Assembly (NCBI RefSeq): GCF_032854445.1
Contig: NC_088306.1
Span: 25,081,764 to 25,145,763, forward strand
Length of the DNA stretch: 64,000 nt
Source of the DNA: Liolophura sinensis
Taxonomy: Eukaryota; Mollusca; Polyplacophora; Chitonida; Chitonidae
Direction of reading: 5' to 3'
The position numbers and the translations under genes are program-made. The notes under the pieces are model-generated. The model worked only from the letters and a program-made list of their open reading frames with translations. It did not search any database and was not told the DNA's origin. Within the stretch, counting starts at the first letter, position 1, and each line of letters opens with the position of its first letter. Shown piece after piece: positions 3,896 through 33,190 of the stretch.

Positions 3896-5769
3896 TGCAG
3901 TCAAGTATGCGACACTGCAGGTTAAGATCTATTGGATTTGAAACCCAAACTCTTTGTCTATTTTGACCCCACATGGCCCAGTATGCGTAGAGCATAAAAC
4001 CTAAAACCAAAACGCGATGGGTTATGAACACAGAAGACTAACAGAGAACCATACCTTCACACATGGTTATCAATTTTATTCTAGTTTAACTCCACACACT
4101 GTAATCGTTGGTTGGTACAAATAATTACATACATTTACAAAATGATATCGGCGGAAGCAAACGGTACTTTTCAATATCTATATATCTACCGCGCTGCAGG
4201 GTGACATTCCACCCCGTACATTACATGACTGTGTAAGACACCAGGAAATGTTCTAACTTTACATCATCTTTTTCGCCTCCCTTATACTATGAGGCTTTAC
4301 GTCTAGCAAACAACACAGAAAAGATTCCTTCGAGAAACACACTCCTCCTCCTAAAATCCCTTTAGACTTCAGTGGAAAGGAGGCATAGTTATAGAAGCCC
4401 CATCGTGTACCTTACATGCAAATAATTTAATGATTTAATGAATTAAGACAGGCATATTCTTCCATTCAGTATTTTGTTTACATACGACTGTAGTAGCGAC
4501 TAAGTCAATCCCAATTATTGATTAAAAACTAACGCATCACACTCGAGGATGTTCAGAGATGTATTAAACAACTGGACTTTAGTTGTCCGGAGTTCAGACT
4601 ATCTGTCGTCAACATAAAGTCTTTGCAACCATCATTTAATATTAATATCAGCAGGACATATATCATCTGGCAAATATAGGATCTGCATCGACATGTATTT
4701 ACACATAGTTCTATGTTTCTGCGTTATATTCACCCCCAAAATGAGTCTTGGTTTATTAATTAAATCAAATTAAAGTTAATTAATGTAATTCAGTAATGCA
4801 AATTACGGCCTAAAGGAGAGTACAATGCGAAGTGGTTTTCCTACAAAATCAGGATAACCAACGAAGTGCGCAGGTAAACCTGTATGACAATTGTTTATCA
4901 CAACAACATAGAGAAAAGATCAACATGTACAAAATAATCACATAAAATTTCAAGAATTATTTACAATATGGCCAATATCTGCACCAAATAAAACATTTGT
5001 ATTGCGTGATATTGAAACTAAATGATGGTGTGGTAATTTTTATTCAACCATGTACATGTATCTCTCAGGAATTACAGGAACCAACGAGGGCTTGAGGACA
5101 GGAATGAAGGGAGGTAAGCCATGCATGGACACTGGCCAATATTACTAAGATCCGATCAAGTAGCTTACCTTACTGGCTTGAAGCCGACTAAAATCGGGAG
5201 AACATCAGCTCCCAGGACGTCCAACGAATTCTCATTGGTTGGAGAAGCAAACACCAGTACCAATCAGAATCGCTCTCTCTCATTACACACCAGTGAAAAT
5301 GCCAGAACACAGGAGCAGTATGGGTCCTTCATCAGTTCTAGTTACAAAGTCATTACAGGCAGTGGCAACTAGGTCTGGTTTTACAGAGAGTTTAGGATAA
5401 CGACACAAACACTAGGTATGAATGATACTCAGATAGATCTATAGGGCTACATTCGTGAATTTAACCAGGAATTTATTTCCGAACACATTAACTATGCTCA
5501 TGTGTAAACCATGATTTTCTATCTACACCACTGGCATTGTATTCAATACAAGGATTAGAGTCAAATCACTATTCTTGCCAATAAAGCATATTTAGTCCAA
5601 ACAACTTCATCAAGATGCAGCTGACTACACCTTTATTTTTAACTCAACCTCACCAACTCCAACTGTGTACACTTCTGTTTTCTTCATGCTATCGCAACAG
5701 TTTTTGTTCAGTAGCATTAAATTTGCATGTTATCGTGATCATTATGACACTGTATCGCATGTATATTTT
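3896..5769. other. Unannotated intergenic stretch
   Basis: AT-rich unique-looking DNA. An 83-codon plus-strand frame at 5121-5372 has no recognisable motif or splice context. The segment lies downstream of the ATP6AP2 3' end and could include UTR of another gene, but nothing supports that. Confidence 0.4.
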
Positions 5770-7027
5770 CAAGAATTTAGGTTTTGGATCATTTATTCCA
5801 GAAGCCCTTAGAGCATGGTGACAATTACACAAATGTTTTAAACAAATATTGGTCCAAAAATAGTACCGATAACAAGGGCTTCCAGTTAACAAAACACTTA
5901 ATTCATCCAGACATCTTCACAGCCATGGAATGTTTGACAACAAAAGTGCTAACAAATCGAGCTGAATCCAAAAGGAGATCAGTACAAGGACCCGGGGTAT
6001 TGGACAGGGGAGATAACTCAACAAAGCAGCACTGTGTCCGACTTTTTGCTTGCGAATTCATGACCAACAGCAAAAGTTTTGTATACATCAATTCAGAAAA
6101 GTTCTTGCACATGAAGCCTTTAGACCATAACCCTCATGTACTAAATTCATATTTACATCGTATAATTAATACTTCAAGTACTATGTAATCAATGAAAACG
6201 TAACCTGAGTACTGACATAAAACGAAATATCAACCATAAAATCATATTATAAACCAATTAACATAAATGAAACAATTAATACTCAGAAAAAAAGGTATAG
6301 TACATATACATCTAAAGTATCTAAGACACACATTTTTTTACCAATGCATCTATATGATTTACCCTTCGATTAATTATTACAATGCTTCATATATGAGAAA
6401 TGGAAATAAACTGAGAAAGAACACCACAAATCAGGAGAAGTTCTCCATGGTTTATCCAACATTCTGTAATAATCATCTCTGTTAGTAAAGAATTTATCTA
6501 TACAGGTCATTGCATAAATATACAACACTTTTCAATAATATGTTTGTATCCTTGACATACTGATTACAGAACTGTGAAACTGTTACCCTTTGTTCCCAAA
6601 TATTTGCAATATTTGCTGTGTGAAGACAAACAAAACCAAAGTCTACTGGCCATACTGTGGAAACCAGAAACATGACTCAGCATCAACTTTTTCTTCTGTT
6701 CACAAATTCCTTACTTCTTTACACTGGCTTATATGTACTATCCTGTCTGCATTAGGAAGTAATTTACAAAGGGAGATAACTCTGCAGTTGTATCATTCAT
6801 GTCTTAGGGAAACTCGCCCGAACAGCTTTATATCACATAATGTTAGGGGGAGGCAAAACAAACGTTATTTTTACTACAATGTAGTCGATTTCAGTGCTTA
6901 CTATCTCTCCTGATATATCTGTATATATACATACGTACAAAACATAAAGACTAGTTTAACTTAAACACACACACCGATCCATACCTACTACTTTTTTTCC
7001 CTTCTTATATTTTTATATTTTGAATTC

Positions 7028-10000
7028 CTAATTATCCTTTTTCATCCTCTGACTGGTCATCCTGTATATAATGCTGTCCCGGCCTGGGTCCATGTTCCAC
7101 ATGCAGTAAGCAATGATGAAGATAGCGATAGCAAGTCCTACCATAAGCCAGAGGATGATGTTGAAATAGACGGGGAAGTCAGGGTCATAGCTGTCAGCAA
7201 GGTTGATCTGATTAGGGCTTGGCACACCATTATCCTGTAGAATAACCAGCTACATGTATGAAAACATGTGAGAATAAATACACTTCACTACTGATTATTT
7301 ATCTACTTGTATGACTGGTGTTTACAACTGTACTCAAGGAATTTTCAATTACCGTATTTGACCTAAAGTTTGGCAAATTTCAAGTTTTTCCATTAAAGAT
7401 CAAGATTTTGGGGGTGAAGTTTGTTTAATTTCTGATCAAACTTAAATCAGGGCATTAGTATCATTTTAAGGCTTTTACATGCTTCTGAAAGACTATTTTT
7501 ACATACCAAACTTTAGGTGAAATTCAGTATATGACAGCAGTCATGTGATTATGGGTGGAGAAAATTATGGGTGTCCGAAATAAACTTAGCAATTTAAAGT
7601 TGTTGTCGAAGCAGCAAGAGGTAGATGCAACCTCACTGATCACAGCCCTGGCAGCCAGAGCCAGCCTGCAAATTTCGTTGCGAATTCAACTGAAGTCATG
7701 AAGTTTGAAAGTTTGTAAAAGCAAATTAAAGCATAAGCAAATATTTTGTTCACTCTCACAAATATGCACCTGAAGATTGGGGAAACTAGTGAGATCCTCT
7801 TATTAAATGCTGCAAAATGCCATATGTGATAATTTGAAACTTTACAACTACATGACATCTTTGAAAGGGAGTCATCAGGGATAAGTGAAACTATGACAGG
7901 ATTGAAAATTGTCAAATACCTGATATAAAACTCAATAGTATGCACATTTAATGCTCTAAACTGCATACATGTATAAAGTGTTTATGCAAAAATATCCTCA
8001 AAGCAAAATGCATGTTTACTATTAAAATTACCTGTTCTACTGCAGTCTGTTTCAAACTCCTCACATGTCTCATATGGGGTGAACTCTCCATGGAGGTCAA
8101 GGTGACAACTTCAACAACAACGTTCCCCTTGTAAAGCTCCTTGAAATCCTCAGACATCTGACACAGAAAAGAACAAGATATAAATGTTTTAAGTTTCTAA
8201 AAGAGACAAGATAAGATATTTTTAAATTTCTTCGCACAAGGCCATGTATATATGCACAGCCACAATATCCCCTTTAAATTTAGGATCAGATCACTCAATT
8301 TTTTCAATATACGGCCTAATGTTATCTATAAATCACTTTGCATCAGATGACAACACCAGCATTTTCATATTTCTTTAATTATAACTGTCTAGATGTTATT
8401 TTTATGCCTGTATTTGCACTCAGTTAAAAGTGGAATGGCCAAAATTTAATTGTGGTCTTACAACTGTCCATTTACACACAAGGTATATCATATATAATCA
8501 TCCAGGATCGTCAGTTTCTGTTCAGATGCTCAATTCAACAAAGACGAGGTTAAAAATGTACCCTCCAAAAAAAAAAACACAAAAAGCCGACAAAGCTGAT
8601 TTAAGCTCAACCCAGAAAAAACTGTCTTCAAACTGTATGTCGACATGAACAAAGTATATGAGAATAGCTATAAAACTTGATAACATGTTTCAAGCATACT
8701 TACCTTATGTAAGAACTGACCAAGCAGAACTTTTGCATCTTGCACCTGTTTAGATTTTACACTATATTCGTCTGTGAGTGCTTTAAGACCAGAGATAGTA
8801 AAAACATACACATCAGGGCTTGGGTTCTTGGTGGCTTTTTTATTATCTTGAACCTGCAAAAAATAACAAGGAATTATTGAAAATATTACAGATCTTTTAA
8901 TCCAAAGTACAATTTGTAAGCCACAGTAAAATGAATGTGAAAATATTGTCTTCAGTCCAAAATAAAATTTTCTCACATAAAATGTGATGGAAGGGAGATA
9001 ACTCCATAACCTCAAACACACATCAAATGCTGTAACATTCTTTATCAGGTGAAGGTTTCTTAAAAAGATGGACTGATAAACTTGTCAGTATAATTCACTG
9101 TATCTTAGAAGTGTTTTAATTTGTCACTAACAGTGAATCCAGGGTCTGATTTGGGGCATTTTTGAACCCATCAAAGGGGTTTGAGTGTGAGAAGTTTTGA
9201 ACATTTTCAGATTAGCTTTGTGAATATAAGTGTACCCAAATTATTCAGTTAGACAAAACCCAGGAGCTGTCTATGAATCTATACCCAGAATTGTTCACTT
9301 AAATGACCAACGCCCGTTTTATTGACGAAGATAACAGAAGTGCCCTGGTTAAACCATCAACCTTTGGCTAGTTACCGACAAACTTTCACAAATGTGTGGT
9401 GCAGATATGCACACCATCATTGGTGGAGGACAAGAGATCTATGAGGTAGCAGTCACCAAAGCCTCACAAATAATGGGCAGAAAAATCCACTCATTCCCTG
9501 TCTAAGACAAGAATTCAAAGAACAGCTTGCCAGCAACCTGTGGATGGTCATGGTTTTCCCCTGGGCTCTGCCCTGTTTTCTCCCACCATAATGCTGGCCA
9601 CTGTCGTAGAAGTGAAATATTCTTGAGTACGGCGTAAAACACCCATCAAATAAATAGATAAATAAATTAATAAATAATTAAATCAAACCACAGTTAAAGT
9701 CATACACCTCACTGACTGAGCTATATCCAGCTCCCCAACTTACTGTAGTCACAACCTCCTTGATAAGCTGAAGCTCTCCCAGTAAACTCAGGTCAGCATC
9801 CTTACTGACGTTCAGAGAACCAGCATTGAACATTCGCAGGATTGAGCTCTGGTCCAAAAGACGAGCCGCCATTTTCCTCAGGTTTGACGGCAGCTTATTG
9901 AACAGCTGTGGATTCTGGGATTTCAAGTCGAAAATCTGGATAAATCAAATAAACATTTTCACTTAGGGTAAAATTAGAATCAACAATTCAGGAAGAAACT

Positions 10001-11920
10001 GCTATTAAGACCACAAATAAGTCTTAATAGCAGTTTTGAACATTTGAATCCAACCTTTTTGAAAGTGTAAAGTTAGTTTTGCTTCAATTTATCAAAGTGA
10101 AAACAGTTTATGTATGTAGTCAATGACAGGCTCAATGTGACACATGTGCAAGCAGAGGTATCTTTTAGAGTCAAATACTCATAACACACAACCATTTTCG
10201 TCTTACCATATTCACAAGACTGATGCCTTCCAACTTGTCCAAACCTAACTAAATGTAGGCATTTCATTTATTCAAAGTTGGACAAGGGCCTGATTGATAT
10301 CAACTGAATCTGAATCATGTATGATTCAAGAATGATGACGTTTTATTTCTATCTTCTGATAGGTGTTAATCATCCTCTCCATAATCGATTTCACATTAAA
10401 GCAAAACTTTGATTTAAGGATGCAGGAAATGGCGCAGAGTTCACAGAAAATCATTTTACTTCATCAATGTTTCACATATGTACCCTGTTTATATACAGTC
10501 CGTATGAATGGTGATGTGCGTACGATGAGTTCAGGAGCAAAACAGACAAATGCATTTCAATTTTTCATTACGATTCAAATCAATTTTTTAAAATAAAAAT
10601 TTAAATTAATCTGCTTTTGCACCTGAACTCTTCATATGAAAAAAAAACAAGAATCTCACGTTTTTATCTAAAGACAAATCCACCAGCATGGGATTTGCCT
10701 CCAGAAAGTTGCTCTGGATAGTGTCCAGTAAGGGTTGGCTGTCAACATATGGAATGTCCTGAAGAATAAAAACAACAGATAACGATAAGTGTGAAAATTG
10801 CCAATTTTACCTCATTCATCAAGTGACAAAAAGAAGAATTCTGCTGAATTTTCTACTTCTCTGATCAACATGTACCGTTTCACTGCCAGGGCTGTAATTA
10901 GAGCAATTTAAGTTCCGGAAAACATTTGGTTGCCCAAATTGACGGCTTACTAATAAACATTAAATTCTTTCATTCGCAGACTGACATGCTTTCGTACAGC
11001 ATCATTTTGAGTCGCTTTTTACAGCATTTCACTTTTCATCTGGGATCAGAACCTTCAACTTCATTCCAGTATGCGTGCCCTGACTGTTAAATTGTGTGAG
11101 TGCAAGTTACATGGGACTACATTTAGGAATGTCGTTATACTGAGAAAAACAGCAGCAGGAAATCCCAATCAGAATTCCGTTCATACACTAACCAACCGGA
11201 AGTGTCTATACTCACATCACTGATGGGATATTTGGCCACTGGGTTGAGATTCAGGCTGCCCAGATCACTGTGGTATCCAGGGATGGTGACCAACACGTTA
11301 GCTTTAGGTCTGCTGAACAGAGAGCCCTGGAGTAACCCCCTTCCATGTCATCCCCTACAGAAAACAAACATGTTAACAACTGGTAACCACAGATTTACAT
11401 GTAGTTCAAAATGTTAGAAAAGACAAAAAACACGGACCATTCTTGCATTTGCTGTGTTATTCATGCCAATATACTTTACTCAAGACAGCCCAGCGATGAA
11501 AACATTGTCTAAACAACATGGCAGTTATCATTCAAAACTCTTTTTCAAAAAAAGTACAAAAACAGGCTTTGTTGACTTACATATGCTGTACAGATTGTTA
11601 CACTGTCTAAAAATTTCTGGCTATTATCAGCTGTAGTTCTCAGAATAAAATTCAGTGCCATTCATTTTACGTATCACCTTTCACCTTGTCGTCGGCTTAC
11701 CACTACCTTATGATAGTGACTTTCCTAGGTGTGCACGGTCTCAAATGTCAGATTGAAGATTCCAAACTCACCCTGCCTGAGTCCACTCCCAGGACGCTGG
11801 ATATGACCTTGTGGATCTCACTGACCTTCAGTACGTCGTCTGTGTGCGCAAACTTCACAGACTTTGGGGAGTGGAGGACATGTAACTGCTGGCTGCTCCC
11901 ATCTTCACCCAGGGATAAAC
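7028..11920 (-). CDS. ATP6AP2: ATP6AP2 exons 2-8, left copy: incomplete and frameshifted
   Basis: Second representation of the V-ATPase accessory protein 2 gene. By splice sites the coding exons are: exon 2 11772-11920, exon 3 11216-11354, exon 4 10660-10758, exon 5 9744-9935, exon 6 8704-8853, exon 7 8032-8157, exon 8 7028-7234 (TAG at 7028-7030). All introns are GT..AG on the minus strand. Exon 1 with the initiator is absent because the block ends at the N gap, inside intron 1. Exon 3 is 139 bp instead of 138: a run of five C at 11336-11340, against four in the other copy, shifts the frame after the MTWKG segment. Residue 96 is Gly here and Arg in the right copy. I read it as the other allele of a single gene carrying a sequencing or assembly error. 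A true non-functional duplicate is the alternative. Confidence 0.88.
9525..9681 (+). mobile_element. SINE-1 fragment in ATP6AP2 intron 5 (left copy)
   Basis: It starts near GCCAGCAACCTG, lacks the head, and ends in AAATAAATAGATAAATAAA. It is antisense to the host gene. The same insertion is at 17011-17168, so it predates the divergence of the two copies. Confidence 0.85.
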
Positions 11921-13056
11921 CTGCAAAAAACAAGAAGGTACATGTAGAACATTTAAAGGAAGTTTTGTTTTTTCTAGGCTAAAATATAATCCAAATACTG
12001 TTCTAGCAGTGAAACCTTCCAGGAATTTGTAAATATACTGATGAGGCAGATCATTCTTTCTCCAAGTTTGGTTTTGTTAGCTGATAGGGAAAAGATGAAC
12101 TTGAAGAACGAATACTGCCTTGTTTTACCTCTTTTATTGGACTGGCGTTCAGTATGATAACATAACAAAGCATCATAGCATTATTATGCTTGATAACAAT
12201 ATTAGTACCTATAACGAATCGTCGTTCACTGCATAAACAGACGTTGTGATCCATTTAGTTGTCATATTATCCAACTAAACTTCAAAAAGGAGAAAGAGAA
12301 ACATACACGACTGTCTCTAGGTCAGCCAGCTGGGACAGATATCATAATGGAGTGACCAGCGCCTGTCGCATAGACATCCACGTCGGCAATCTCACTAAAA
12401 AATAACAGCTCAAATCCTACCTTACATTTGCTATGCACTGATTACCCAAGTCGAACGAAGTGTAGTTAAGTCATAGACAGCTTTCAACTGGAAGCTGTTA
12501 AAACTTTTAAATCAAACCAACATCCACGTTTTGATCTGTAACTTCCACCAAGATACCTGCAGCCTGTTTGAAAATTCCTTCCAAATTTTCATTATGAATT
12601 TATTTGTGGGTTTTTTTTTTTGTTTTTGTTTTTTTTCTGTTTTTTTCATATTTCGTTGTCAACATTTTAGCTTACTAACAGCTAACAGGTGCCTTGCCAG
12701 GGGCTTGGCAGGAGTTCAAAACATTTCAACAGTTCGATTAATGTTATAAGATGATTTACTGATGCTGGCTGTGACATAACTACACCTTCGTCAACTCAAA
12801 GAATCAACAAATGCCACATCTAAGGTAGGGTTCGAGCTGTTTTTTTAGTGAAATTGTCCACATGGAAGTCTCTGTGACCGGCACTGGGCGCTGTCTTACC
12901 CTGGGTAGTGTCCCAGCTAGCTGAGCTTCATTTTCTCCCATTTACCAATCAATTCACTGTATAATTTTTGCAGTTAAAACTTCCAAGAGGATACCCTAGA
13001 ATTCTGTCATGTCACCTAGCTAAATGAGGGAAAGAATGTGATGGTAGGTGCCCGGG

Positions 13057-13256
13057 NNNNNNNNNNNNNNNNNNNNNNNNNNNNNNNNNNNNNNNNNNNN
13101 NNNNNNNNNNNNNNNNNNNNNNNNNNNNNNNNNNNNNNNNNNNNNNNNNNNNNNNNNNNNNNNNNNNNNNNNNNNNNNNNNNNNNNNNNNNNNNNNNNNN
13201 NNNNNNNNNNNNNNNNNNNNNNNNNNNNNNNNNNNNNNNNNNNNNNNNNNNNNNNN
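13057..13256. other. Assembly gap, 200 N
   Basis: Exactly 200 undetermined bases. A round number suggests a placeholder rather than a measured gap. The two ends of the duplicated block meet it precisely. Confidence 0.99.
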
Positions 13257-13278
13257 CAAGAATTTAGGTTTTGGATCA

Positions 13279-13284
13279 TTTATT
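13279..13284 (-). promoter_or_regulatory. Candidate ATP6AP2 polyadenylation hexamer
   Basis: AATAAA on the minus strand, about 1.2 kb after the stop codon. I saw no other AATAAA between it and the stop in this copy by eye. The equivalent in the left copy is at about 5792-5797. The 3' UTR length is therefore unproven. Confidence 0.3.
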
Positions 13285-14512
13285 CCAGAAGCCCTTAGAG
13301 CATGGTGACAATTACACAAATGTTTTAAACAAATATTGGTCCAAAAATAGTACCGATAACAAGGGCTTCCAGTTAACCAAACACTTAATTCATCCAGACA
13401 TCTTCACAGCCATGGAATGTTTTGACAACAAAAGTGCTAACAAATCGAGCTGAATCCAAAAGGAGGTCAGTACAAGGACCCGGGGTATTGGACAGAGGAG
13501 ATAACTCAACAAAGCAGCACTGTGTCCGACTTTTTGCTTGCGAATTCATGACCAACAGCAAAAGTTTTGTATACATCAATTCAGAAAAGTTCTTGCACAT
13601 GAAGCCTTTAGACCATAACCCTCATGTACTAAATTCATATTTACATCGTATAATTAATACTTCAAGTACTATGTAATCAATGAAAAGGTAACCTGAGTAC
13701 TGATATAAAACGAAATATCAACCATAAAATCATATTATAAACCAATTAACATAAATGAAACAATTAATACTCAGAAAAAAAGGTATAGTACATATACATC
13801 TAAAGTATCTAAGACATACATTTTTTTACAAATGTATCTATATGATTTACCCTTCGATTAATTATTACAATGCTTCATATATGAGAAATGGAAATAAACT
13901 GAGAAAGAACACCACAAATCAGGAGAAGTTCTCCATGGTTTATCCAACATTCTGTAATAATCACCTCTGTTAGTAAAGAATTTATCTATACAGGTCATTG
14001 CATAAATATACAACACTCAATAATATGTTTGTATCCTTGACCTACTGATTACAGAACTGTGAAACTGTTACCCTTTGTTCCCAAATATTTGCAATATTTG
14101 CTGTGTAAAGACAAACAAAACCAAAGTCTACTGGCTATACTGTGGAAACCAGAAACATGACTCAGCATCAACTTTTTCTTCTGTTCACAAATTCCTTACT
14201 TCTTTACACTGGCTTATATGTACTATCCTGTCTGCATTAGGAAGTAATTTACAAAGGGAGATAACTCTGCAGTTGTATCATTCATGTCTTAGGGAAACTC
14301 GCCCGAACAGCTTTATATCACATAATGTTGGGGGGAGGCAAAACAAACGTTATTTTTACTACAATGTAGTCGATTTCAGTGCTTACTATCTCTCCTGATA
14401 TATCTGTATATATACATACGCACAAAACATAAAGACTAGTTTAACTTAAACACACACACAGATCCATACCTACTACTTTTTTCCCCTTCTTATATTTTAA
14501 TATTTTGAATTC

Positions 14513-14719
14513 CTAATTATCCTTTTTCATCCTCTGACTGGTCATCCTGTATATAATGCTGTCCCGGCCTGGGTCCATGTTCCACATGCAGTAAGCAATG
14601 ATGAAAATAGCGATAGCAAGTCCTACCATAAGCCAGAGGATGATGTTGAAATAGACGGGGAAGTCAGGGTCATAGCTGTCAGCAAGGTTGATCTGATTAG
14701 GGCTTGGCACACCATTATC
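14513..14719 (-). CDS. ATP6AP2: ATP6AP2 exon 8: transmembrane segment and tail
   Basis: Begins after TTATTCTACAG with codons for DNGVPSPNQ and ends in TAG. It encodes residues 306-373: a juxtamembrane segment, the helix FNIILWLMVGLAIAIFIIAY and the conserved cytosolic NMDPG..SIIYRMT tail ending KKDN. Confidence 0.95.
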   Translation of the reverse strand, partial: DNGVPSPNQINLADSYDPDFPVYFNIILWLMVGLAIAIFIIAYCMWNMDPGRDSIIYRMTSQRMKKDN

Positions 14720-17700
14720 CTGTAGAATAACCAGCTACATGTATGAAAACAGGTGAGAATAAATACACTTCACTACTGATTATTTATCTACTTGTATGAC
14801 TGGTGTTTACAACTGTACTCAAGGAATTTTCAATTACTGTATTTGACCTAAAGTTTGGCAAATTTCAAGTTTTTCCATTAAAGATCAAGATTTTGGGGAT
14901 GAAGTTTACTTAATTTCTGATCAAACTTAATCAGGGCATTAGTATCATTTTAAGGCTTTTACATGCTTCTGAAAGAGTATTTTTACATACCAAACTTTAG
15001 GTGAAATTCAGTATATGACAGCAGTCATGTGATTATGGGTGGAGAAAATTATGGGTGTCCGAAATAAACTTAGCAATTTAAAGTTGTTGTCGAAGCAGCA
15101 AGAGGTAGATGCAACCTCACTGATCACAGCCCTGGCAGCCAGAGACAGCCTGCAAATTTCGTTGCGAATTCAACTGAAGTCATGAAGTTTGAAAGTTTGT
15201 AAAAGCAAATTAAAGCATAAGCAAATATTTTGTTCACTCTCACAAATATGCACCTGAAGATTGGGGAAACTAGTGAGATCCTCTTATTAAATGCTGCAAA
15301 ATGCCATAATATGTGATAATTTGAAACTTTACAACTACATGACATCTTTGAAAGGGAGTCATCAGGGATAAGTGAAACTATGACAGGATTGAAAATTGTC
15401 AAATACCTGATATAAAACTCAATAGTATGCACATTTAATGCTCTAAACTGCATACATGTATAAAGTGTTTATGCAAAAATATCCTCAAAGCAAAATGCAT
15501 GTTTACTATTAAAATTACCTGTTCTACTGCAGTCTGTTTCAAACTCCTCACATGTCTCATATGGGGTGAACTCTCCATGGAGGTCAAGGTGACGACTTCA
15601 ACAACAACATTCCCCTTGTAAAGCTCCTTGAAATCCTCAGACATCTGACACAGAAAAGAACAAGATATAAATGTTTTAAGTTTCTAAAAGAGACAAGATA
15701 AGATATTTTTAAATTTCTTCACATAAGGCCATGTATATATCCACAGCCACAATATCACCTTTAAATTTAGGATCAGATCACTCAATTTTTTCAATATACG
15801 GCCTAATGTTATCTATAAATCACTTTGCATCAGATGACAACACCAGCATTTTCATATTCCTTTAATTATAACTGTCTAGATGTTATTTTTATGCCTGTAT
15901 TAGCACTCAGTTAAAAGTGGAATGGCCAAAATTTAATTGTGGTCTTACAACTGTCCATTTACACACAAGGTATATCATATATAATCATCCCGGATCGTCA
16001 GTTTCTGTTCAGATGCTCAATTCAACAAAGACAAGGTTAAAAATGTACCCTCCAAAAAAAAAAAAAACACAAAAAGCCGACAAAGCTGATTTAAGCTCAA
16101 CCCAGAACAAACTGTCTTCAAACTGTATGTCGACATGAACAGAGTATATGAGAATAGCTATAAAACTTGATAACATGTTTCAAGCATACTTACCTTATGT
16201 AAGAACTGACCAAGCAGAACTTTTGCATCTTGCACCTGTTTAGATTTTACACTATATTCGTCTGTGAGTGCTTTAAGACCAGAGATAGTAAAAACATACA
16301 CATCGGGGCTTGGGTTCTTGGTGGCTTTTTTATTATCTTGAACCTGCAAAAAATAACAAGGAATTATTGAAAATATTACGGATCTTTTAATCCAAAGTAC
16401 AATTTGTAAGCCACAGTAAAATGAATGTGAAAATATTGTCTTCAGTCCAAAATAAAATTTTCTCACATAAAATGTGATGGAAGGGAGATAACTCCATAAC
16501 CTCAAACACACATCAACTGCTGTAACATTCTTCATCAGGTGAAGGTTTCTAAAAAAGATGGACTGATAAACTTGTCAGTTTAATTCACTGTATCTTAGAA
16601 GTGATTTAATTTGTTTGACAGTGAATCGAGGGTCTGATTTGGGGCATTTTTGAACCCATCACAGGGGTCTGAGTGTGAGAAGTTTTGAACATTTTCAGAT
16701 TTGCTTTGTGAATATAAGTGTACCCAAATTATTCAGTTAGACAAAACCCAGGAACTGTCTATGAATCTATACCCAGAATTGTTCACTTAAATGACCAAAA
16801 CCAGTTTTATTGACGAAGGTAACAGAAGTGCCCTAGTTAAACCATCAACCTTTGGCTAGTTACCGACAAACTTTCACAAATGTGTGGTACAGATACGCAC
16901 ACCATCATTGGTGGAGGACAAGAGATCTATGAGGCAGAAGTCACCAAACCCTCACAAATAATGGGCAGAAAAATCCACTCATTCCCTGTCCAAGACAAGA
17001 ATTCAAACTACAGCTTGCCAGCAACCTGCGGAGGGTCGTGGTTTTCCCCTGGGCTCTGCCCTGTTTCCTCCCACCATAATGCTGGCCAATGTCGTAGAAG
17101 TAAAATATTCTTGAGTACGGCGTAAAACACCCATCAAATAAATAGATAAATAAATTAATAAATAATTAAATCAAACCACAGTTAAAGTCCTACACCTCAC
17201 TGACTGAGCTATATCCAGCTCCCCAACTTACTGTAGTCACAACCTCCTTGATAAGCTGAAGCTCCCCCAGTAAACTCAGGTCAGCGTCCTTACTGACGTT
17301 CAGAGAACCAGCATTGAACATTCGCAGGATAGAACTCTGGTCCAAAAGACGAGCGGCCATTTTCCTCAGGTTTGACGGCAGCTTATTGAACAGCTGTGGA
17401 TTCTGGGATTTCAAGTCGAAAATCTGGATAAATCAAATAAACAAACATAAAATTAGAATCAACAATTCAGGAAGAAACTGCTTTTAAGACCACAAATAAG
17501 TCTAATCCTTTACATTTGAATCCAACCTTTTTGAAAGTGTAAAGTTAGTTTTGCTTCAATTTATCAAAGTGAAAACAGTTTACGTATGTAGTCAATGACA
17601 GACTCAATGTGACACATGTGCAAGCAGAGGTATCTTTTAGAGTCAAATACTCATAACTCATAACCATCTTCGTCTTACCATATTCACAAGACTGATGGCT

Positions 17701-20700
17701 TCCAACTTGTCCAAACCTAACTAAATGTAGGCATTTCATTTATTCAATGTTGGACAAGGGCCTGATTGATATCAACAGAATATGAATTATGTATGATTCA
17801 AGAATAATGACGTATTATTTCTATCTTCTGATAGGTGTTAATCATCCTCTCCATAATCGATTTCACATTAATACACAACTTTGATTTAGGGATGCAGGAA
17901 ATGGCGCAGAGTTCACAGAAAATCATTTTACTTCATCAATGTTTCACATATGTACCCTGTTTATATACAGTCCATATGAATGTGCGTACGATGAGTTCAG
18001 GAGCAAAACAGACAAATGCATTTCAATTTTTCATTACGATTCATATCAATTTTTTAAAATAAAAAATTTAAATTAATCTGCTTTTGCGCCTGAACTCTTC
18101 ATATGAAAAAAAACAAGAATCTCACGTTTTTATCTAAAGACAAATCCACCAGCATGGGATTTGCCTCCAGAAAGTTGCTCTGGATAGTGTCCAGTAAGGG
18201 TTGGCTGTCAACATATGGAATGTCCTGAAGAATAAAAACAACAGATAACGATAAGTGTGAAAATTGCCAATTTTACCTCATTCATCAAGTGACAAAAAGA
18301 AGAATTCTGCTGAATTTTCTAATTCTCTGATCAACATGTACCGTTTCACTGCCAGGGCCGTAATTAGAGCAATTTAAGTTCCGGAAAACATTTGGTTGCC
18401 CAAATTGACGGCTTACTAATAAACATTAAATTCTTTCATTCACAGACTGACATGCTTTCATACAGCATCATTTTGAGTAGCATTTTACAGCATTTCACTT
18501 TCATCTGGGATCAGAACCTTCAACTTCACTCCAGGTATGCGTGCCCTGACTGTTAAATTGTGTGAGTACAAGATACATGGGACTACATTTAGGAATGTCG
18601 TTATACTGAGAAAACAGCAGCAGGAAATCCCAATCAGAATTCCGTTCATACACTAACCAACCGGAAGTGTCTATACTCACATCACTGATGGGATATTTGG
18701 CCACTGGGTTGAGATTCAGGCTGCCCAGATCACTGTGGTATCTAGGGATGGTGACCAACACGTTAGCTTTAGGTCTGCTGAACAGAGAGCCCTGGAGTAA
18801 CCCCTTCCATGTCATCCCCTACAGAAAACAAACATGTTAACAACTGGTAACCACAGATTTACATGTAGTTCAAAATGTTAGAAAAGACAAAAAACACGGA
18901 CATTCTTGCATTTGCTGTGTTATTCATGCCAATATACTTTACTCGAGGCAGCCCAGCGATGAAAACATTGTCTAAACAACATGGCAGTTATTCATTCAAA
19001 ACTCTTTTTCAAAAAAAGTACAAAAACAGGCTTTGTTGACTTACATATGCTGTACAGATTGTTACACTGTCTAAAAATTTCTGGCTATTATCAGCTGTAG
19101 TTCTCAGAATAAAATTCAGTGCCATTCATTTTACATATCACCTTTCACCTTGTCGTCGGCTTACCACTACCTTATGATAGTGACTTTCCTAGGTGTGCAC
19201 GGTCTCAAATGTCAGATTGAAGATTCCAAACTCACCCTGCCTGAGTCCACTCCCAGGACACTGGATATGACCTTGTGGATCTCACTGACCTTCAGTACGT
19301 CGTCTGTGTGCGCAAACTTCACAGACTTTGGGGAGTGGAGGACATGTAACTGCTGGCTGCTCCCATCTTCACCCAGGGATAAACCTGCAAAAAACAAGAA
19401 GGTACATGTAGAACATTTAAAGGAAGTTTTGTTTTTTCTAGGCTAAAATATAATCCAAATACTGTTCTAGCAGTAAAACCTTCCAGGAATTTGTAAATAT
19501 ACTGATGAGGCAGATCATTCTTTCTCCAAGTTTGGTTTTGTTAGCTGATAGGGAAAAGATGAACTTGAAGAACGAATACTGCCTTGTTTTATCTCTTTTA
19601 TTGGACTGGCGTTCAGTATGATAACATAACAAAGCATCATAGCATTATTATGCTTGATAACAATATTAGTACCTATAACGAATCGTCGTTCACTGCATAA
19701 ACAGACGTTGTGATCCATTTAGTTGTCATATTATCCAACTAAACTTCAAAAAGGAGAAAGAGAAACATACACGACTGTCTCTAGGTCAGCCAGCTGGGAC
19801 AGATATCATAATGGAGTGACCAGCGCCTGTCGCATAGACATCCACGTCGGCAATCTCACTAAAAATAACAGCTCAAATCCTACCTTACATTTGCTATGCA
19901 CTGATTACCCAAGTCGAACGAAGTGTAGTTAAGTCATAGACAGCTTTCAACCGGAAGCTGTTAAAACTTTTAAATCAAACCAACATCCACGTTTTGATCT
20001 GTAACTTCCACCAAGATACCTGCAGCCTGTTTGAAAATTCCTTCCAAATTTTCATTATGAATTTATTTGTGGGTTTTTTTTTTGTTTTTGTTTTTTTTCT
20101 GTTTTTTCATATTTCGTTGTCAACATTTTAGCTTACTAACAGCTAACAGGTGCCTTGCCAGGGCTTGGCAGGAGTTCAAACATTTCAACAGTTCGATTAA
20201 TGTTATAAGATGATTTACTGATGCTGGCTGTGACATAACTACACCTTCGTCAACTCAAAGAATCAATAAATGCCACATGTAAGGTAGGGTTCGAGCTGTT
20301 TTTTTAGTGAAATTGTCCACATGGAAGTCTCTGTGACCAGCACTGGGCGCTGTCTTACCCTGGGTAGTGTCCCAGCTAGCTGAGCTTGATTTTCTCCCAT
20401 TTACCAATCAATTCACTGTATAATTTTTGCAGTTAAAACTTCCAAGAAGATACCCTAGAATTCTGTCATGTCACCTAGCTAAATGAGGAAAAGAATGTGA
20501 TGGTAGGTGCCCGGGAATTTGAAAGTTGAGGTTGCTATCACATGGTAAAGTCACGAAAATAAGCCAATTCGGCATTGTGAGTTCTCGCAGGTTGAGACAA
20601 AACAGGGTGGGGACTCTCGCGAACTAACGTGGCTAATGGGTGTGATTATGCAGCAGCTGCTAACGTCGCTGTTGCGGTGACAGACTCGGTTATGCGAGAT

Positions 20701-21576
20701 GTGTATTCAGTCCTGGAAGCACCATACAATTTTGCGTTTTAGCTGCGTTAGTTTGCGGCAGCCTCCACTCCATCTCCTCTATATCATCGTGAACTTGTGA
20801 GACTTGGTTTATTCATTGTAAAACCCACTTCTGGGAGGAGGCTCATCGACTAACAGAAGAACAAACACAGTCTTTACAACTGCCCGATTACTCATCATGC
20901 CGTGCTATACTAAATTAGTACATACATGTATTCTAGGCATAAGTACATGTAAGAGCCCTAGCTTTTCGACTTGCCTAAGACAATGGCAATGCAAGTCTCC
21001 TCCACCCCACCCCCCCCCACACCAATATTCATTTATTTATTTATTTATTTATTTATTTATTTGATGGGGGGTTTTACGCCATACTCAACAATATTTTACT
21101 TATATGACGGTGGCCAGCATTATGGTGGGAGGAAACCGGCCAGAGCCTGGGGGAAACCCAAGACAACACGCAGGTTGGTGGCAGGCCTTCCCACGTCCCC
21201 TTACATACTGAGCACGCGGGTAATAATTTGGAACGAAAATACTTTAAAAGAACTAAACCAAAAGGTCTGATACATTACCATTGGTTGTTTCTGCCTTTTT
21301 TATCAATGGAGAGATGAGGAAACAAATCGGGTTAGATTTCGCTTACTGTCCGACATGAGCATGTTGTTGTTGAAATCATGTGATACTGACAGGTCCCGGT
21401 AAGTTCAATCTCAAAAGGACTATTCAAAAACTAACCGCTGCAAACAAATATGACATGCGGCAATGACATATACCTGCAATTAGAAAAACATAATTTCACG
21501 AAAGGAGAGACTTACCAATGACAAAACACGAGATCAAAACTGAACAGATAGACATTTCGACAATCCTGTCCACCAT
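14513..21576 (-). CDS. ATP6AP2: ATP6AP2: V-ATPase accessory protein 2 / (pro)renin receptor, complete gene, 8 coding exons
   Basis: Type I membrane protein. In animals it assists V-ATPase assembly in the ER and has been linked to prorenin binding and Wnt signalling. I reconstruct 373 codons from exons 21516-21576, 19236-19384, 18681-18818, 18126-18224, 17232-17423, 16194-16343, 15519-15644 and 14513-14719, all with GT..AG minus-strand introns and matching phases. Domains: signal peptide about 1-21, large luminal ectodomain to about 327, transmembrane helix about 329-350, short cytosolic tail. The tail NMDPGRDSIIYRMTSQ is the family hallmark. A furin-type RHVR site is at residues 293-296, where the vertebrate processing site lies, and the protein ends in KKDN, a KKxx ER-retrieval signal. 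Human ATP6AP2 is 350 residues, so the length fits. The start is supported by an in-frame TAA a few codons upstream of the ATG. The 5' UTR and promoter were not identified. Confidence 0.94.
15519..15644 (-). CDS. ATP6AP2: ATP6AP2 exon 7: membrane-proximal ectodomain with furin-type site
   Basis: A 126-bp phase-0 exon (42 codons) between GTGTCAG and CAG/GTAATT. LYKGNVVVEVVTL matches the conserved LYGNNAVVELVTV region of the family. RHVR lies at codons 30-33 of the exon. Confidence 0.94.
16194..16343 (-). CDS. ATP6AP2: ATP6AP2 exon 6
   Basis: A 150-bp phase-0 exon (50 codons) between TTTTTTGCAG and AAG/GTAAGT. It contains SPDVYVFTISGLKALTDEY, which corresponds to the family's SPDLY..ELAGL segment. 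Confidence 0.93.
17011..17168 (+). mobile_element. SINE-1 fragment in ATP6AP2 intron 5 (right copy)
   Basis: Same insertion as at 9525-9681, with the same 5' truncation point and tail, and a handful of substitutions. Confidence 0.85.
17232..17423 (-). CDS. ATP6AP2: ATP6AP2 exon 5
   Basis: A 192-bp phase-0 exon (64 codons) between TTTATCCAG and ACA/GTAAGT, from IFDLKSQNPQ to LGELQLIKEVVTT. The leucine-rich segment aligns with the family's LPxxL..LSELQVL stretch. Confidence 0.92.
18126..18224 (-). CDS. ATP6AP2: ATP6AP2 exon 4
   Basis: A 99-bp phase-0 exon (33 codons) between TTCTTCAG and AAC/GTGAGA, encoding DIPYVDSQPLL through LSLDKN. It joins the two neighbouring exons in frame. It has no motif of its own and is identified by position, splice sites and phase. 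Confidence 0.88.
18681..18818 (-). CDS. ATP6AP2: ATP6AP2 exon 3, intact reading frame
   Basis: A 138-bp phase-0 exon (46 codons) between TTTCTGTAG and GAT/GTGAGT. GMTWKGLLQGSLFSRPKANV matches the family's LTW.G..VGNLFHRPRATV. This copy has four C at 18801-18804 where the left copy has five. Confidence 0.94.
19236..19384 (-). CDS. ATP6AP2: ATP6AP2 exon 2
   Basis: A 149-bp exon starting in phase 1 after TTTTTTGCAG and ending AGG/GTGAGT. It completes Gly21 with exon 1. LHVLHSPKSVKF corresponds to the mature N-terminal FSILKSPGSVVF of the family. Confidence 0.92.
21031..21198 (-). mobile_element. SINE-1 fragment in ATP6AP2 intron 1
   Basis: (ATTT)n tail at 21031-21063, then the body as far as GGCAGGCCTTCCCACG. 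Head missing. It has the same strand as the gene and lies just outside the duplicated block. Confidence 0.85.
21516..21576 (-). CDS. ATP6AP2: ATP6AP2 exon 1: start codon and signal peptide
   Basis: 61 coding bases: 20 codons plus one base, followed by GTAAGTCTCTCC. The peptide MVDRIVEMSICSVLISCFVI is a plausible signal sequence, with a hydrophobic core from residue 8. The leftover G plus the GT of exon 2 gives Gly21 and keeps the frame. Met8 is a possible alternative start. Without this exon neither copy has an initiator. Confidence 0.85.
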
Positions 21577-22689
21577 CTTGAATAACGTTTATCATGTGAC
21601 AGCTGTGGCATGTAAGGAGAATCTCAACCGGAAGTATACAATAATACCAAAATATCCCTATTATTTCACATTTATGTGCACAAACTTTAATACAAACAAC
21701 CCCAAATAATTTTATTTCTGTCTTCCATTTGCGCGAATCATTACAAAATTGCTGAACTGAAGAGATTTTAATAATTGTATTGATAGAAATCTCCTCCCGA
21801 AATCAGCGCCACCATACCACTTCACAAAGGGGGCGAAACTTTGCATTTCTAAGTTGTTAGGAGAAGAAGGAATCTTCAACTTGTGTAAACATCAAGTAGA
21901 TCCACTGGGCCAAAGCTTAGTGTCTGAAAGTCCTTACCCTTGGTGGCAAGGTCTAAATATCATAAAGAAGGCAAACCGACTTACTATACCGTTGTCCAAA
22001 GCAACGGGCTACCAACAAAATATATAATTACTTGTTGCAGACCCACACAGCTCTATAGACCGACACACGACACACAAACTTACAGCTATATGTATAGGCC
22101 TATGTATGCTATTAAATAGAATAATTATTAGCGGATATATATATGATCACTACCCAAAGCAGAAACAGTTCTGTTTAACGTAAGCTTGTAAACATTTACA
22201 CACACTTTTGCTCTGAAATATGAATTCTAAACATCTTAGTTAGGTGAGTGAATGCGCGGGGCTGATTCCTGCAGTGAAACATACATCTGGGAGATCGGCA
22301 CAATCCAGACTAAAGGCTACATGTGCATTGAGCTTATAATTCATGCAAGCAAAAGTCAATTCAGTTTCTTTTGGGTGATTTTCTTTTGGCTGCCCGGACT
22401 CGCCCTGCCACAAATAAGACACAGTATATATGTACACACACCTAACTATTAAGTGCGATTTTAAACCCTAAACATACATATATACTGTACATAGGCTACA
22501 AATAACTAACTAACTAAATAAATATCACAAGTTCAAATCCCGCTCCCGTTGATTTGTCTGGGGCGGCTTTGCCTGGGTGGAGGTTTGGGAGCTACTAGTA
22601 TACACATGGGACAGGTCGCTGATTTTCCCCGGGTTCAACGAGTGTATAAACATTTAATTAAGTGTGTAGTATACATGCACTGTACACCC
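21577..22689. other. 5' flank of ATP6AP2
   Basis: It should hold the 5' UTR and promoter, but I see no TATA box, CpG cluster or clear initiator. The frames here are short and unsupported. Confidence 0.4.
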
Positions 22690-22826
22690 GGGTGAAACCG
22701 GCGACCATCCACAGGTTTCTCGGGAGAGTAACCAGCACGAGCTGGACTTGAACTCACAGCAACAGCAGTGGTGAGAGCGTTATTGCAACGCGCTTACACG
22801 CTAACCACCTGGACCACGGAGGCCCC
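22690..22826 (-). mobile_element. SINE-1 head fragment
   Basis: It retains GAGTTCAAGTCCAGCTCGTG and the A-box-side end GGGGCCTCCGTGGTCCAGGT on the minus strand. The 3' body is missing, so it is broken rather than 5' truncated. Confidence 0.75.
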
Positions 22827-22895
22827 TAAAATATATGTAAGTGTATTGTTCTTGGAACAAAAATTCTAAATAACTAAGTCTTAGTTTTAGTAATG

Positions 22896-23243
22896 AGCCG
22901 GCCGTACGTGGGAATGTCTTCCAGCAACCTGCGGAAGTCCAATGATGTATTTTTAAGTGGAATGGCTATATACAAAAACAAAAATCCAGCAGAGGAAACT
23001 TCTGCTCCTATATTATCTTAAATAGCGATTGTAATTAACAATTTCAATAGTGCTCACCAAGTGATCAGTGACCAGTCTTTTATACAAATGGGTCTGCCAG
23101 CAACGTGTGGATGGTCGTAGGTTTCCCCCGGGCTCTGCCCAGTTTCCTCTCACCATAATGCTGGTCGCCGTCGTATAAGTGAAATATTCTTGAGTACGGC
23201 ATAAAACACCAATCAAATAAATAAAATAAATAAATAAATAGTA
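22896..23243 (+). mobile_element. Composite SINE-1 copy A with ~155-bp module
   Basis: A short SINE-1 piece (GCCGTACGTGGGAATGTCTT) is followed by a non-SINE module at 22937-23092, then the SINE-1 body from CCAGCAACGTGTGGATGG to the AAATAAAT tail. The same module-body junction appears inverted at 29058-29365. Both share GTGTGGATGGTCGTAGGTTT, so they form a distinct subfamily or a duplicated segment. Confidence 0.78.
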
Positions 23244-24207
23244 ATGAGTCATAAATGAGGCGTAACATTCCGAAACTTAGCATGTTATATACGGGTATTT
23301 CAGATTTCTTACTCAAGTGGATTAAAATAAATGAAAGCGTTAATTAAAGTTGCATGGTTAAAAAAAATTTTGTGAACAAAACCAACATACCTGGGAAAGG
23401 TTTAATTTGTTTTTGATGTATTTCTGACTTGCGCCCGAGATAATCGATCGGAATTTCTTGATTATTAATGTCTTTGAAAATAAATCAGTTTTAAATTAAA
23501 TGACAAACCTAAAAATACATTACTCACATGTATGATTGGACATGTTCCACTAGAGTTGCTTATTTAAAACAACTACCATATCGATCAACAAATCGCGAGA
23601 TGTAAAATTGGGTTGATTATCTCGAGAGCACCGGATTTTAAGGAAGTTCCCGTTAGCACAACCCACAAAGATTTGATTTTAAAGATCTCCGATATGTTTC
23701 TAAAACAAGAATAGTTTGGTGAAGCTTCTTCCATATCAAGAATGTCTTTTTTTAACAATGCCACTTTCACAGGTCGTGTCAATAGGATACAACCAACTGC
23801 ATTTAAAATAGAGGTTTGGCAGAGTTATCTCCCATTAGCCATCAAATAGTCAATATACGCTTGACCCGATTTTTTTTCTTCCACATCTTGCGTTTAAAGT
23901 CTGTGTGCACCACGTTTCAGAAACGCCCATATATGTAATGAATTAAGCAACAATCAGCCGACAAATCAGTCTTTTAATCAATTTAATCCATACGTATATA
24001 TCCAGTTACTGACAAAGTCATGCTTCATGCCAAAAAAATGACGGTTTCCTGCCGGATCTGTCGGATTTACTCCATCTATCTGTTGTTGCATAACGGAAGT
24101 AGTACTGAACATGACGCATGTGTCAATTAAACAGGTAAATAATCTTATACCTAAGCAAAAAATGTTAACTTCAAAGTATAGGAAGTTCTTAATGAATAAA
24201 GTCTAAA

Positions 24208-24300
24208 ATAAAGTCATAAGCACTCATAAATAAGGTCATAAATACTCATAAATAAGGTCATAAATACTCATAAATAAAGTCATACATAAATAATAAAATA
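24208..24300. repeat. ~24-bp tandem repeat, AT-rich
   Basis: Three to four units of AAGGTCATAAATACTCATAAAT with small changes. From 23244 to 24207 I see no gene. The 24301-25406 stretch has only short frames; the 80-codon one at 24665-24907 is unrecognised. Confidence 0.75.
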
Positions 24301-25406
24301 TATGAATACATAAAGTAAAGATTTTCATAATTAAAAAAAAAAACAATTGTTAACTTTATGTCCCATTATAATTTATGTACCGGTACTTGTTTTTATTTTC
24401 CGTAGCACAACAAAAACGAAAAAGAAAGGATAGTTAAAGGTCCAAATGTTATTCACTCGCTTTTAAGAGCTCAAAAGACAAATGATGACCTCAAATTGTA
24501 CCCTGATCATTATAAAGATGACTATGTATCATGCAAATATTTATTATTTTAGACTCATAAATGATTGATTGTTATATTTCATTCACTTCCATGCTGTTTT
24601 GCCTGGATGTAAATACAATCCAATGCATTTGACGCCTTTACGTCAAATTAGATGACTGCTCTTTTTGTTCAGGTCATCAATTTGTAGAGCTCAAAATGCG
24701 GAAGATTTTGATCCTAAAAATAGCTTCGTGATTCGCCATGGGCTCATTATAAACCCGATACCGGCACGCGTTAACCGTATAGGCGCTTCGATTTGTTTAC
24801 CTTCTACTGATCATTACCCTCCTAGAATGTGCTTCCACGGAGCGATTACAGCTGATAAATGTGACACAGTTTCAATTACACCGCCAGTAACCCTACTCCC
24901 ACAATAAGTAGCCGAAGTCGTCGTGGTTTTGAGGTGTAGGCCGATCAATTACAACAAGTGCACGCTTGACCGCACGAAATGAGTTCTACCATGAGTTGTC
25001 GCCATGTTGAACTATTTTTATCTCCGAGTTTGAGGTATTCCGATCCAGTAGTAATCATATTGCCTGATAAAATGTTTGGTGGCAGTGTGGTTGATAGTTA
25101 CAGTAGCTTACTGTGTGTATATAAGTGCATGACAAGTGTCAATCTGGGATCCATATAGGCCGTATTGTACAGTTGTCTAAAACTGAAACTGAAATTGCTA
25201 CATTAAGATCACTCTTATGTTTTTCTTCATTGGTAGCTAAAACTGCTTAGCTCCATACTGATCGCCAACTAAATTGTTCTTGACATATACAACATGTAGT
25301 TCCTTGGAAACACCAGTTACCACTGATCCAGTGCGCATGGTGTTCGTTTCCGAGATTGCGTTGAATGAAATCGCGTCGGAATTCGTCCAGCTCTACCGAA
25401 GGTGAA

Positions 25407-25420
25407 GTGCCATCTAGTGG
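25407..25420 (-). promoter_or_regulatory. CTCF-like core motif
   Basis: The minus strand reads CCACTAGATGGCAC, an exact fit to the degenerate CTCF core CCASYAGRKGGCRS. A weaker related sequence is near 25666. It lies 3.8 kb upstream of ATP6AP2 exon 1. Function is inferred from the motif only. Confidence 0.35.
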
Positions 25421-25956
25421 TCGGCAGTTTCCGGATCAATACTTTCTGTTGGCGTTAAGTTCAGTAGGATAGACAGGGTCACCGTGACCTTCGCGGAGAA
25501 GAAGACAGTAAACAAGCGCTAGTGGATATTAGGATAAACAAGTTCAGCTGGAAATCATTCAAGTACATAGATATATATATATTTAAATATAGTCATAGCT
25601 GAATCGAAATCACAGTAGTGTGCAGCCACAAAACGGGAAAGAAATACGAATATCTAGGTCGAATATGCCATCTAGGAGGTGACAAACTGCTAGATACGTG
25701 TAGGTGTACATGTATGTTGGCAATTGCTGGGTTTTAATTGTATCTTGGACAATCCAGACAGCCAGGCCGCGAGTGTTTGAATTCTAGGTCAGTGTCACGT
25801 GATTCACTGTAGGCCCTATTGCAAAATATTTCGAAACACGCTCATTTGTTTGTCATATACATATATACATGTATCAGTGAAGAGGACCGGACGGAGGCGT
25901 AATTTGCCGAAGAACGTGCATATACGGGACAGTATACGTCTGATTAATATGAAAAA

Positions 25957-26088
25957 AACCTGCGGATGGTCGTGGGTTTCCGCCGGGTTGTGCCCGGTTT
26001 CCACCCACCATAATGCTGGCCGCCGTCGTATAAGTGAAATATTCTTGAGTACGGCGTAAAACACCAATCAAATAAATAAATAAATAAT
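25957..26088 (+). mobile_element. SINE-1 fragment, 5' truncated
   Basis: Starts at ACCTGCGGATGGTCGTGG and is intact to ACACCAATCAAATAAATAAA. Well preserved, hence probably young. Confidence 0.87.
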
Positions 26089-27867
26089 ATGAAAAATGTG
26101 ATATACTTACATATAATGACCAATTGCCTTTGACCATAATTTAATTGTTGAAATCGAAAGCTGTTTATTATAGAAGTCGAATCAAACCTGATCATGAACG
26201 CTCGAGTATTTTTTTTTATGTTTTTAATGATAAACGGCCAATATATACCAATAAACATGCACTTACCAGGCTGATAAAAATAAAGCCCAGGAACCCAAGA
26301 TTAATTCTGTTGAGAATGATTTTCAGTCAGACATATCGGTATTAATAACCTACTGTAGGCACATTTTATGTATTTTGTGCATTTGCCATGCAATGAGAGT
26401 TTATTCTGATCATAAGCGCGCATGCGTAAATATTGTACACTTGACCGGTGAGTAATGAGCCAACAGTCCAGATTACGCACAACATTTGTCTGTCAGGCGT
26501 GGTTTTATAGCGACAAACTATAGACTAAACACAATGGATGGATCCGACACAACCGATATCCCACCACCACTTCTTGTGGCAATGCTGTTTTTTATTCATT
26601 CCCGGTCATGACGTCACAGAAACATTAAACATTGTAACCAGTGTGTGGGACACCCGGTTGACCTATTTGTAATGCTGCTTATGATTGGTCAATTTCGTGT
26701 TCTTGATCGACAGTTCGGAACGATCTATTTGACACCGTGAGACAAATGAGGACATTTGTATGTATGAGACATGATTGTACTCGTACATTGTTATAATACA
26801 TTATATATACGAACAGATTTCAGACCAAAAAACGATTTCTACCAAGGGGTTACCACATACAAAAACATCATCAATTACGCTTCTGTGCGATCACGTGAGA
26901 TCTTATTTTGTGTAAATTGAGGACATAGTGAAAAAAACACGTGTCACGACATTCAACCAGCTCGCTATACTAGCAAATAGCGAAGCTAAATGCGGACTGT
27001 ATATGTGTGTTGAGACGATAAGCTTGTTGATGGTGTTTCATATTTTGAATTGAAATATTTATTCAGTAAACTTCATTTGTGTTATGACAAGAGTCTGAGG
27101 CCATAAACTATAATCTATGTTTTATCTGAAGGTCAAACTTGGGAAAATGATTCTTAATACGCTGACGCTCTTAATCACTGCATTTTACAGGATTATATAA
27201 ATTATATAAGAATACTAGAAATCCACAAATCCATTGAAATCTAAAGTTCCGGGATACAATAATGTAAACATTGTTTACGCAGTGACCCGACTTAAAACAT
27301 TCGTTTTGTTGTAAAATGTCCAATACATTTAGCAAAGCGTCTCTTCAATTTGAAACGTTTTTCCGAAGGTTCATTTTTGGGTCACGTCAGTTAATACTCT
27401 GAACAATGTATAAGTTATGTATAAAACCAAATTATTATAGTTCAGCTCCCGGCGTCAAAAAAATAAAAATTATGTAATAACCGAAAGCAAAATGAAACAA
27501 TGAAGTAAAATGAAATGATATAAAATGAATAAAAGTGAATCTTGGATAGAGGATTGAAGAGATTACTCCACTAACGGATTTGCTAAATCAGTTCCAAATA
27601 TTATAGTCCTGTGGAGTCTGCGCAATAGGTTTTATGAGTCCGAGCATAACTCATTTCCGCTCGTGGACGTTATGCTCAGCACGCACGCTTGTAACTCTTT
27701 CAGTAGCTGATTAGGAATCGATAAATCTGTTTTATAGTTATTGATTAATCTGCATGTGGAATGGAGGCCTATGAAACACTGTAGGCCTAAAGCCGAAGTA
27801 TTGAACTTAGGCGTATCAAAATAAGAAATCATCTCTTTTCTGATGCGTCTACAGTTCTACAGTTCTA
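26089..27867. other. Unannotated intergenic stretch
   Basis: No gene recognised. One palindromic TGACGTCA (CRE-type) sits at 26609-26616. A direct triplication of TTCTACAG lies just before 27870. Confidence 0.4.
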
Positions 27868-28106
27868 CAGATCCAGGATCAATCCTTGGTAGGGTGAAAG
27901 CTAAGACCTTAAAAGAGGAAGTTGTAGCTTCCGCGCTTGGCGTTCAGTATTAAGGGGATAGTGTAACGACCGGTTTGACCCGTATGATTATATTACTGCT
28001 GGGGCGGGGTGGCTTACTTCCCTTCGGTAAGTCGTCTCAGTGAAGCAGCACTAGATTAAAGAACGGTGGAAATCCGTCCTGCAGCAAGGAGGCACATTAC
28101 AATAAA
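27868..28106 (+). mobile_element. SINE-2 copy (second tRNA-derived family), body
   Basis: Begins within a B-box-like GATCCAGGATCAATCCTTGG. It continues CTAAGACCTTAAAAGAGGAA, GGGCGGGGTGGCTTACTTCC, GAAGCAGCACTAGATTAAAG and ends GCAAGGAGGCACATTAC. It has no similarity to SINE-1. Related heads are at 36580-36672 and 57643-57757. Confidence 0.65.
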
Positions 28107-28154
28107 TTTAATTTATTTGATTGGTATTTTTAAGCCGTACTCAAGAATATTTCA
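28107..28154 (-). mobile_element. SINE-1 3' end fragment
   Basis: Only the tail and about 35 bp of body remain (TTGATTGGTATTTTTAAGCC, CTCAAGAATATTTCA). It directly abuts the SINE-2 end. Confidence 0.75.
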
Positions 28155-28708
28155 GGTACACTCTTATTTTTAATGGTGCTGACAGGCAGTACACTTACTA
28201 AAAACACCGTTTTTATCCACAAAACACCGTTTAAAGGTGTATTAATAGGGTGTTCACATGATATGGATATGAAATGCAGCGTGAATATGCTCTTTGTAAA
28301 TATTTTCGGGTGTGACTTTTTAAATGGGCGTTCGAAGAGTATGAATCAAGCTGTGGTTGCTCTTATATTATATCCCAAGTTATTTTTCTCATAGCTTGGC
28401 TACACGAATGCTTTCTTTTAGAACATAGGTTGGTGGAATATATTATTCTCTGTCATATCGATTTCATCATGTCTACATTAGTTTATGAATCACATCAGTC
28501 ATGTAATTAAATATATGATTTGTTAGTCCATGTGACACGTATACTGATACACTAAAATAGGGATACAGAATATAGATGATTTGCAATTGCAGCCATCTTT
28601 GAGGTAAGTTTGCGTATATGGCCCATCGTATGCCCTAACCAGCTAAGAGCCTCTAGCTTATAACACCTCTGACAATAGACATCCAAGGGGCACTGCTCAA
28701 TCTTACAT

Positions 28709-28738
28709 CAAGATATATGCATATAAACATATATCTTG
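28709..28738. repeat. Short perfect hairpin
   Basis: CAAGATATATG and CATATATCTTG form an 11-bp stem with an 8-base loop. No flanking T-run or gene suggests a role. Confidence 0.45.
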
Positions 28739-33158: not shown

Positions 33159-33190
33159 AGGTAGGTCTGGCCTTTGGAGACTGTGAGACA

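Follow-up and report, generated by a model that had tools for sequence, protein, structure and literature searches.

An ATP6AP2 block repeated across a scaffold gap: a probable false duplication

The repeated block and its gene

The window analysed here, a stretch of 64,000 nucleotides, contains the same 7.3 kb twice, on the two sides of a run of 200 N that is the only N run within it (Table 1). In a self-BLAST of the window (E up to 1e-20), the two copies aligned on the same strand over 7297 columns with 97.6% identity and 124 mismatches; among the matches listed, this was the sole pair of such size. Global alignment with MAFFT yielded 7249 aligned bases with 127 SNPs (1.75%; 76 transitions and 51 transversions) and 22 indels over 48 gap columns, including indels of 6, 7 and 9 bases. 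Where the N run begins, the left copy terminates in GCCCGGG; immediately behind the run, the right copy opens with CAAGAATTTAGG. The repeat thus extends to the final base of the left contig and starts at the first base of the right contig, with no overhang on either side. A first-pass annotation of this DNA had described an ATP6AP2 block laid down twice across the gap, with edges that coincide with the N run and with a SINE insertion common to both copies; the alignments reproduce its coordinates to the base, and the shared SINE-like insert was recovered as well.

The gene in the block is ATP6AP2 (renin receptor, V-ATPase accessory protein 2), encoded on the minus strand. Exons 2 to 8 of the right copy together with a candidate exon 1 translate into 373 aa, which matched the renin receptor in the PDB (E 6.9e-58, residues 30-372 of 373) and two Pfam families, the N-terminal RENR_N (2.8e-81; 273.4 bits, cut-off 39.4) and the transmembrane Renin_r (2.4e-30; 104.8 bits, cut-off 27.8). 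With its similarity to solved renin receptors and both domains, the right-copy protein displayed nothing unusual in comparison with the known gene.

Searching for the first exon, we scanned positions 19400-34000 for first exons with 31-118 coding bases, a donor score of at least 4 and a hydrophobic core of at least 1.8, with starts tried from about position 19600 onwards, some 200 bases away from exon 2. Three rows were returned, two of which share their end at 21516, whereas the third lies within a SINE-like element; at these thresholds, the scanned range held no candidate inside the repeated block. The best candidate, judged by its sequence, spans 21576-21516 and would encode the signal peptide. 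Because it sits on the right contig and beyond the repeat, the left copy probably comprises only seven of the eight coding exons and has no start codon; with this exon 1, the start would be present on the right contig only.

Table 1. Positions within the window of the repeated block, the ATP6AP2 exons and the features that distinguish the two copies
Feature	Position	Strand	Remarks
Left copy of repeated block	5770..13056		final 7287 bases of left contig; self-BLAST, global alignment
Scaffold gap, 200 N	13057..13256		sole N run in window
Right copy of repeated block	13257..20515		initial 7259 bases of right contig; self-BLAST, global alignment
ATP6AP2 exons 2-8, left copy	7028..11920	-	exon 3 frameshifted relative to right copy
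Individual exons 2-8, left copy	11920-11772, 11354-11216, 10758-10660, 9935-9744, 8853-8704, 8157-8032, 7234-7028	-	
ATP6AP2 exons 2-8, right copy	14513..19384	-	open frame; splice sites picked by eye, read by script
Individual exons 2-8, right copy	19384-19236, 18818-18681, 18224-18126, 17423-17232, 16343-16194, 15644-15519, 14719-14513	-	
Likely ATP6AP2 exon 1 (signal peptide)	21516..21576	-	outside repeat, right contig only; predicted from sequence
SINE-like insert common to both copies	about 9525..9683 (left), about 17013-17171 (right)		self-BLAST, alignment
SNP-dense stretch	9000..10499		62 of 127 SNPs, 4.2%
One-base indel cluster (13 of 15)	10594..12718		near left contig's end
One extra base, 5-base homopolymer of left exon 3	11336	-	

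Selection and error in the differences between the copies

Exons 2 to 8, which with the stop codon total 1061 bases in the right copy, contain 11 SNPs, of which 10 are synonymous and one is nonsynonymous. This bias is far stronger than expected from the site counts (binomial P 2e-6), and SNP density is lower in coding sequence (1.04%) than elsewhere in the block (1.87%). Because the coding SNPs run 10:1 synonymous, they are not sequencing noise: the SNPs are natural variation under selection, as between alleles of a working gene, and for the same reason neither copy resembles a long-decaying version. Pure sequencing error as the source of all differences is ruled out by this bias, the one-base indels described below being the exception to the allele-like pattern.

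The differences had been characterized as scattered over introns and exons alike. Both are indeed affected, but the spread is uneven, with fewer SNPs in exons, one-base indels gathered near the end of the left contig, and almost half of the SNPs in a single stretch of 1.5 kb, on whose two sides the density is only 1.2% and 1.0%. As many as 63 SNPs fall in the densest 1500 aligned bases, compared with a maximum of 48 across 2000 shuffles. Such unevenness fits old haplotype blocks of an outbred species; patchy gene conversion between paralogues could be another source, and the clustering of SNPs favours neither a false nor a true duplication. As to the overall level, heterozygosity values of 3.2% for the outbred Pacific oyster and 2.4% for the quagga mussel are among those reported (PMC7992393), and next to such outbred bivalves the 1.75% between the copies appears ordinary and, if the DNA is molluscan, unremarkable.

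Most of the one-base indels follow another pattern, which adds to the first-pass annotation: 13 of the 15 fall within the terminal 2.5 kb of the left contig, 10 of them in homopolymer runs of at least 4. SNPs are sparse in the same part of the block (26 of 127 in 10500-13056). As the boundary at 10500 used for the indel count was set post hoc, we rely on rank tests instead. Compared with SNPs, one-base indels lie closer to the left contig end (Mann-Whitney P 1e-4). The 11 one-base indels in runs of at least 4 are also shifted in that direction when set against all runs of this kind in the left copy (P 0.002). The extra base is in the left copy for 10 of the 13 clustered indels and in the right copy for three, which is a tendency only (P 0.09); among the 10 clustered indels in runs of at least 4, it is the left copy that has the extra base in nine. 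Taken by position and sequence context, the cluster looks like the product of a thin and insufficiently polished consensus close to where the contig ends.

One member of this cluster, the extra base at 11336, shifts the frame of exon 3 in the left copy if that copy is spliced like the right one. We considered whether the left copy is a pseudogene. Its single frameshift lies in a homopolymer and belongs to the error-like cluster, and on this evidence the label of pseudogene is not warranted; the 10:1 synonymous ratio of the coding SNPs also speaks against it. The frameshift itself would more plausibly be a consensus error.

Allelic contigs or a second gene

That the copies end exactly at the gap had been offered as a sign of allelic contigs. 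The edges are real, but they lose their decisive value, and we dropped them as proof of a false duplication, because any end-to-start overlap produces such edges, and a true tandem duplication would look identical if its junction fell in the gap. The two copies, on one scaffold, abut the only N run of the window, and the left contig end aligns to the right contig start, as in a heterozygous contig overlap; a junction between tandem units in contiguous sequence, as in a true tandem gene duplication, is absent from the window and, if it exists, lies inside the gap. Since this geometry fits both readings, the choice between them has to rest on other grounds.

The observations taken together support the proposal of the first-pass annotation that two overlapping haplotype contigs were scaffolded end to end: the identity of the gene, the overlap, the allele-like divergence, purifying selection, the one-sided exon 1 candidate and the contig-end indels all fit it. 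We infer that the copies are alleles and hold with high confidence that the ATP6AP2 repeat represents a retained overlap of two haplotypes, i.e., a heterotype false duplication; very probably, it is an assembly error and involves no real duplication of the gene. A single ATP6AP2 locus of a heterozygous diploid would then have yielded two contigs with a 7.3 kb overlap. The left contig would enter from the 3′ side of the gene and stop within intron 1, whereas the right contig, from the other haplotype, would begin 3′ of the stop codon and continue out past the promoter side. The overlap would have been left unpurged, and the scaffolder would have joined the end of the left contig to the start of the right one through a fixed gap of 200 N. 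The individual would accordingly possess one ATP6AP2 gene per haplotype at this locus, not two.

Such a course of events has precedents. According to the description of purge_dups (Guan et al. 2020, PMC7203741), heterozygous overlaps stay among the primary contigs at high heterozygosity, which most insects and marine animals have; long-range scaffolders do not, to those authors' knowledge, handle them. An overlap of two contigs that persists through scaffolding is what we find here too, judged in our case by alignment. Among the heterotype false duplications treated by Ko et al. (2022, PMC9516828) is ZBTB11 of the zebra finch, for which an earlier assembly had 9 of 11 coding exons falsely duplicated adjacent to the gene. 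The ATP6AP2 case resembles it in that most exons are doubled beside the gene, a gap intervenes, the differences are allele-like and an end exon is probably single. It differs from the cases described there in that a contig-end frameshift gives the truncated copy the look of a pseudogene. The criteria for such duplications include haploid read depth on each copy, one-copy heterozygous k-mers and discordant read pairs at the join; the ATP6AP2 case is judged from the assembled sequence. Among the papers searched, none joined ATP6AP2, duplication and mollusc.

The main rival is a real tandem duplication of most of ATP6AP2 whose unit junction was lost in the gap, making the left copy a second gene with its first exon missing or hidden there. 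The end-to-start overlap suits it equally well, contig breaks do happen at repeats, and both the 4.2% SNP density in one 1.5 kb stretch, as patchy gene conversion between paralogues could leave it, and the frameshift of the left copy, such as a decaying copy might have, could be accommodated. However, the 10:1 synonymous SNPs do not indicate decay, and the frameshift falls inside the error-like indel cluster. In general, moreover, accurate long reads, if such were used here, should resolve a repeat of 7.3 kb at 1.75% divergence. In the comparison that Ko et al. report (PMC9516828), true duplications did not show a gap between their copies. We therefore regard a real tandem duplication as improbable. 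To the version in which a recent duplication of exons 2 to 8 gave a second copy with no normal exon 1, or with one hidden in the gap, and both copies were under selection until very recently, we assign the same small chance.

Two further explanations appear more improbable still. A single haplotype might have been assembled twice, with sequencing errors blocking the merge (homotype false duplication), for which one could cite the one-base indels in homopolymers towards the end of the left contig, since they look like errors, but 127 SNPs with a 10:1 synonymous ratio in exons, together with indels of 6, 7 and 9 bases, are not random errors, and we give this hardly any credence. Equally far-fetched is a tandem duplication carried by one of the two homologues: it requires a real duplication and, in addition, an assembly break at the junction, and nothing that we observed calls for it.

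If the duplication is false, gene counts and dosage taken from this assembly are wrong at the ATP6AP2 locus. Beside one ATP6AP2, an annotation could list an 'ATP6AP2-like' gene or pseudogene that is truncated and frameshifted, and errors in the consensus close to the end of a contig can lend a false duplicate the appearance of a decaying paralogue.

Other features of the window

A search of the window against Rfam at gathering thresholds gave no matches. The Pfam scan took in 10 of 32 listed ORFs, and the single match was a remnant below the cut-off: the ORF at 343-747 weakly resembles a reverse transcriptase RNase H-like domain (E 0.0029, 18.2 bits vs a cut-off of 24.8).

CpG depletion is mosaic, the usual pattern among invertebrates whose gene bodies are methylated. 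Over 5001-22500, which covers the ATP6AP2 region, the observed/expected ratio in 500-base windows ranges from 0.18 to 0.82 and is mostly below 0.55, whereas it is near 1 in much of the remaining window, with low exceptions, e.g., at 1-1000, 3501, 28501, 37001 and 39001. A 26-base tandem array of about 26 copies, reported in two TRF rows, occupies 36873-37556, and the ratio in 37001-37500 is 0.07. Tandem repeats of 57 bases at 2027-2238 and 2502-2615 form two close arrays with common sequence, and self-BLAST also revealed a direct repeat between 42153-42552 and 52547-52990 (444 alignment columns, 79% identical).

Dispersed SINE-like elements were found by self-BLAST on both strands in at least 12 copies, at 2240, 3213, 9528, 17016, 21027, 23093, 25957, 29059, 32773, 40520, 48485 and 59556. 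This family appears to resemble molluscan elements. SINE types of bivalves are among those that have been described (PMC10294476).
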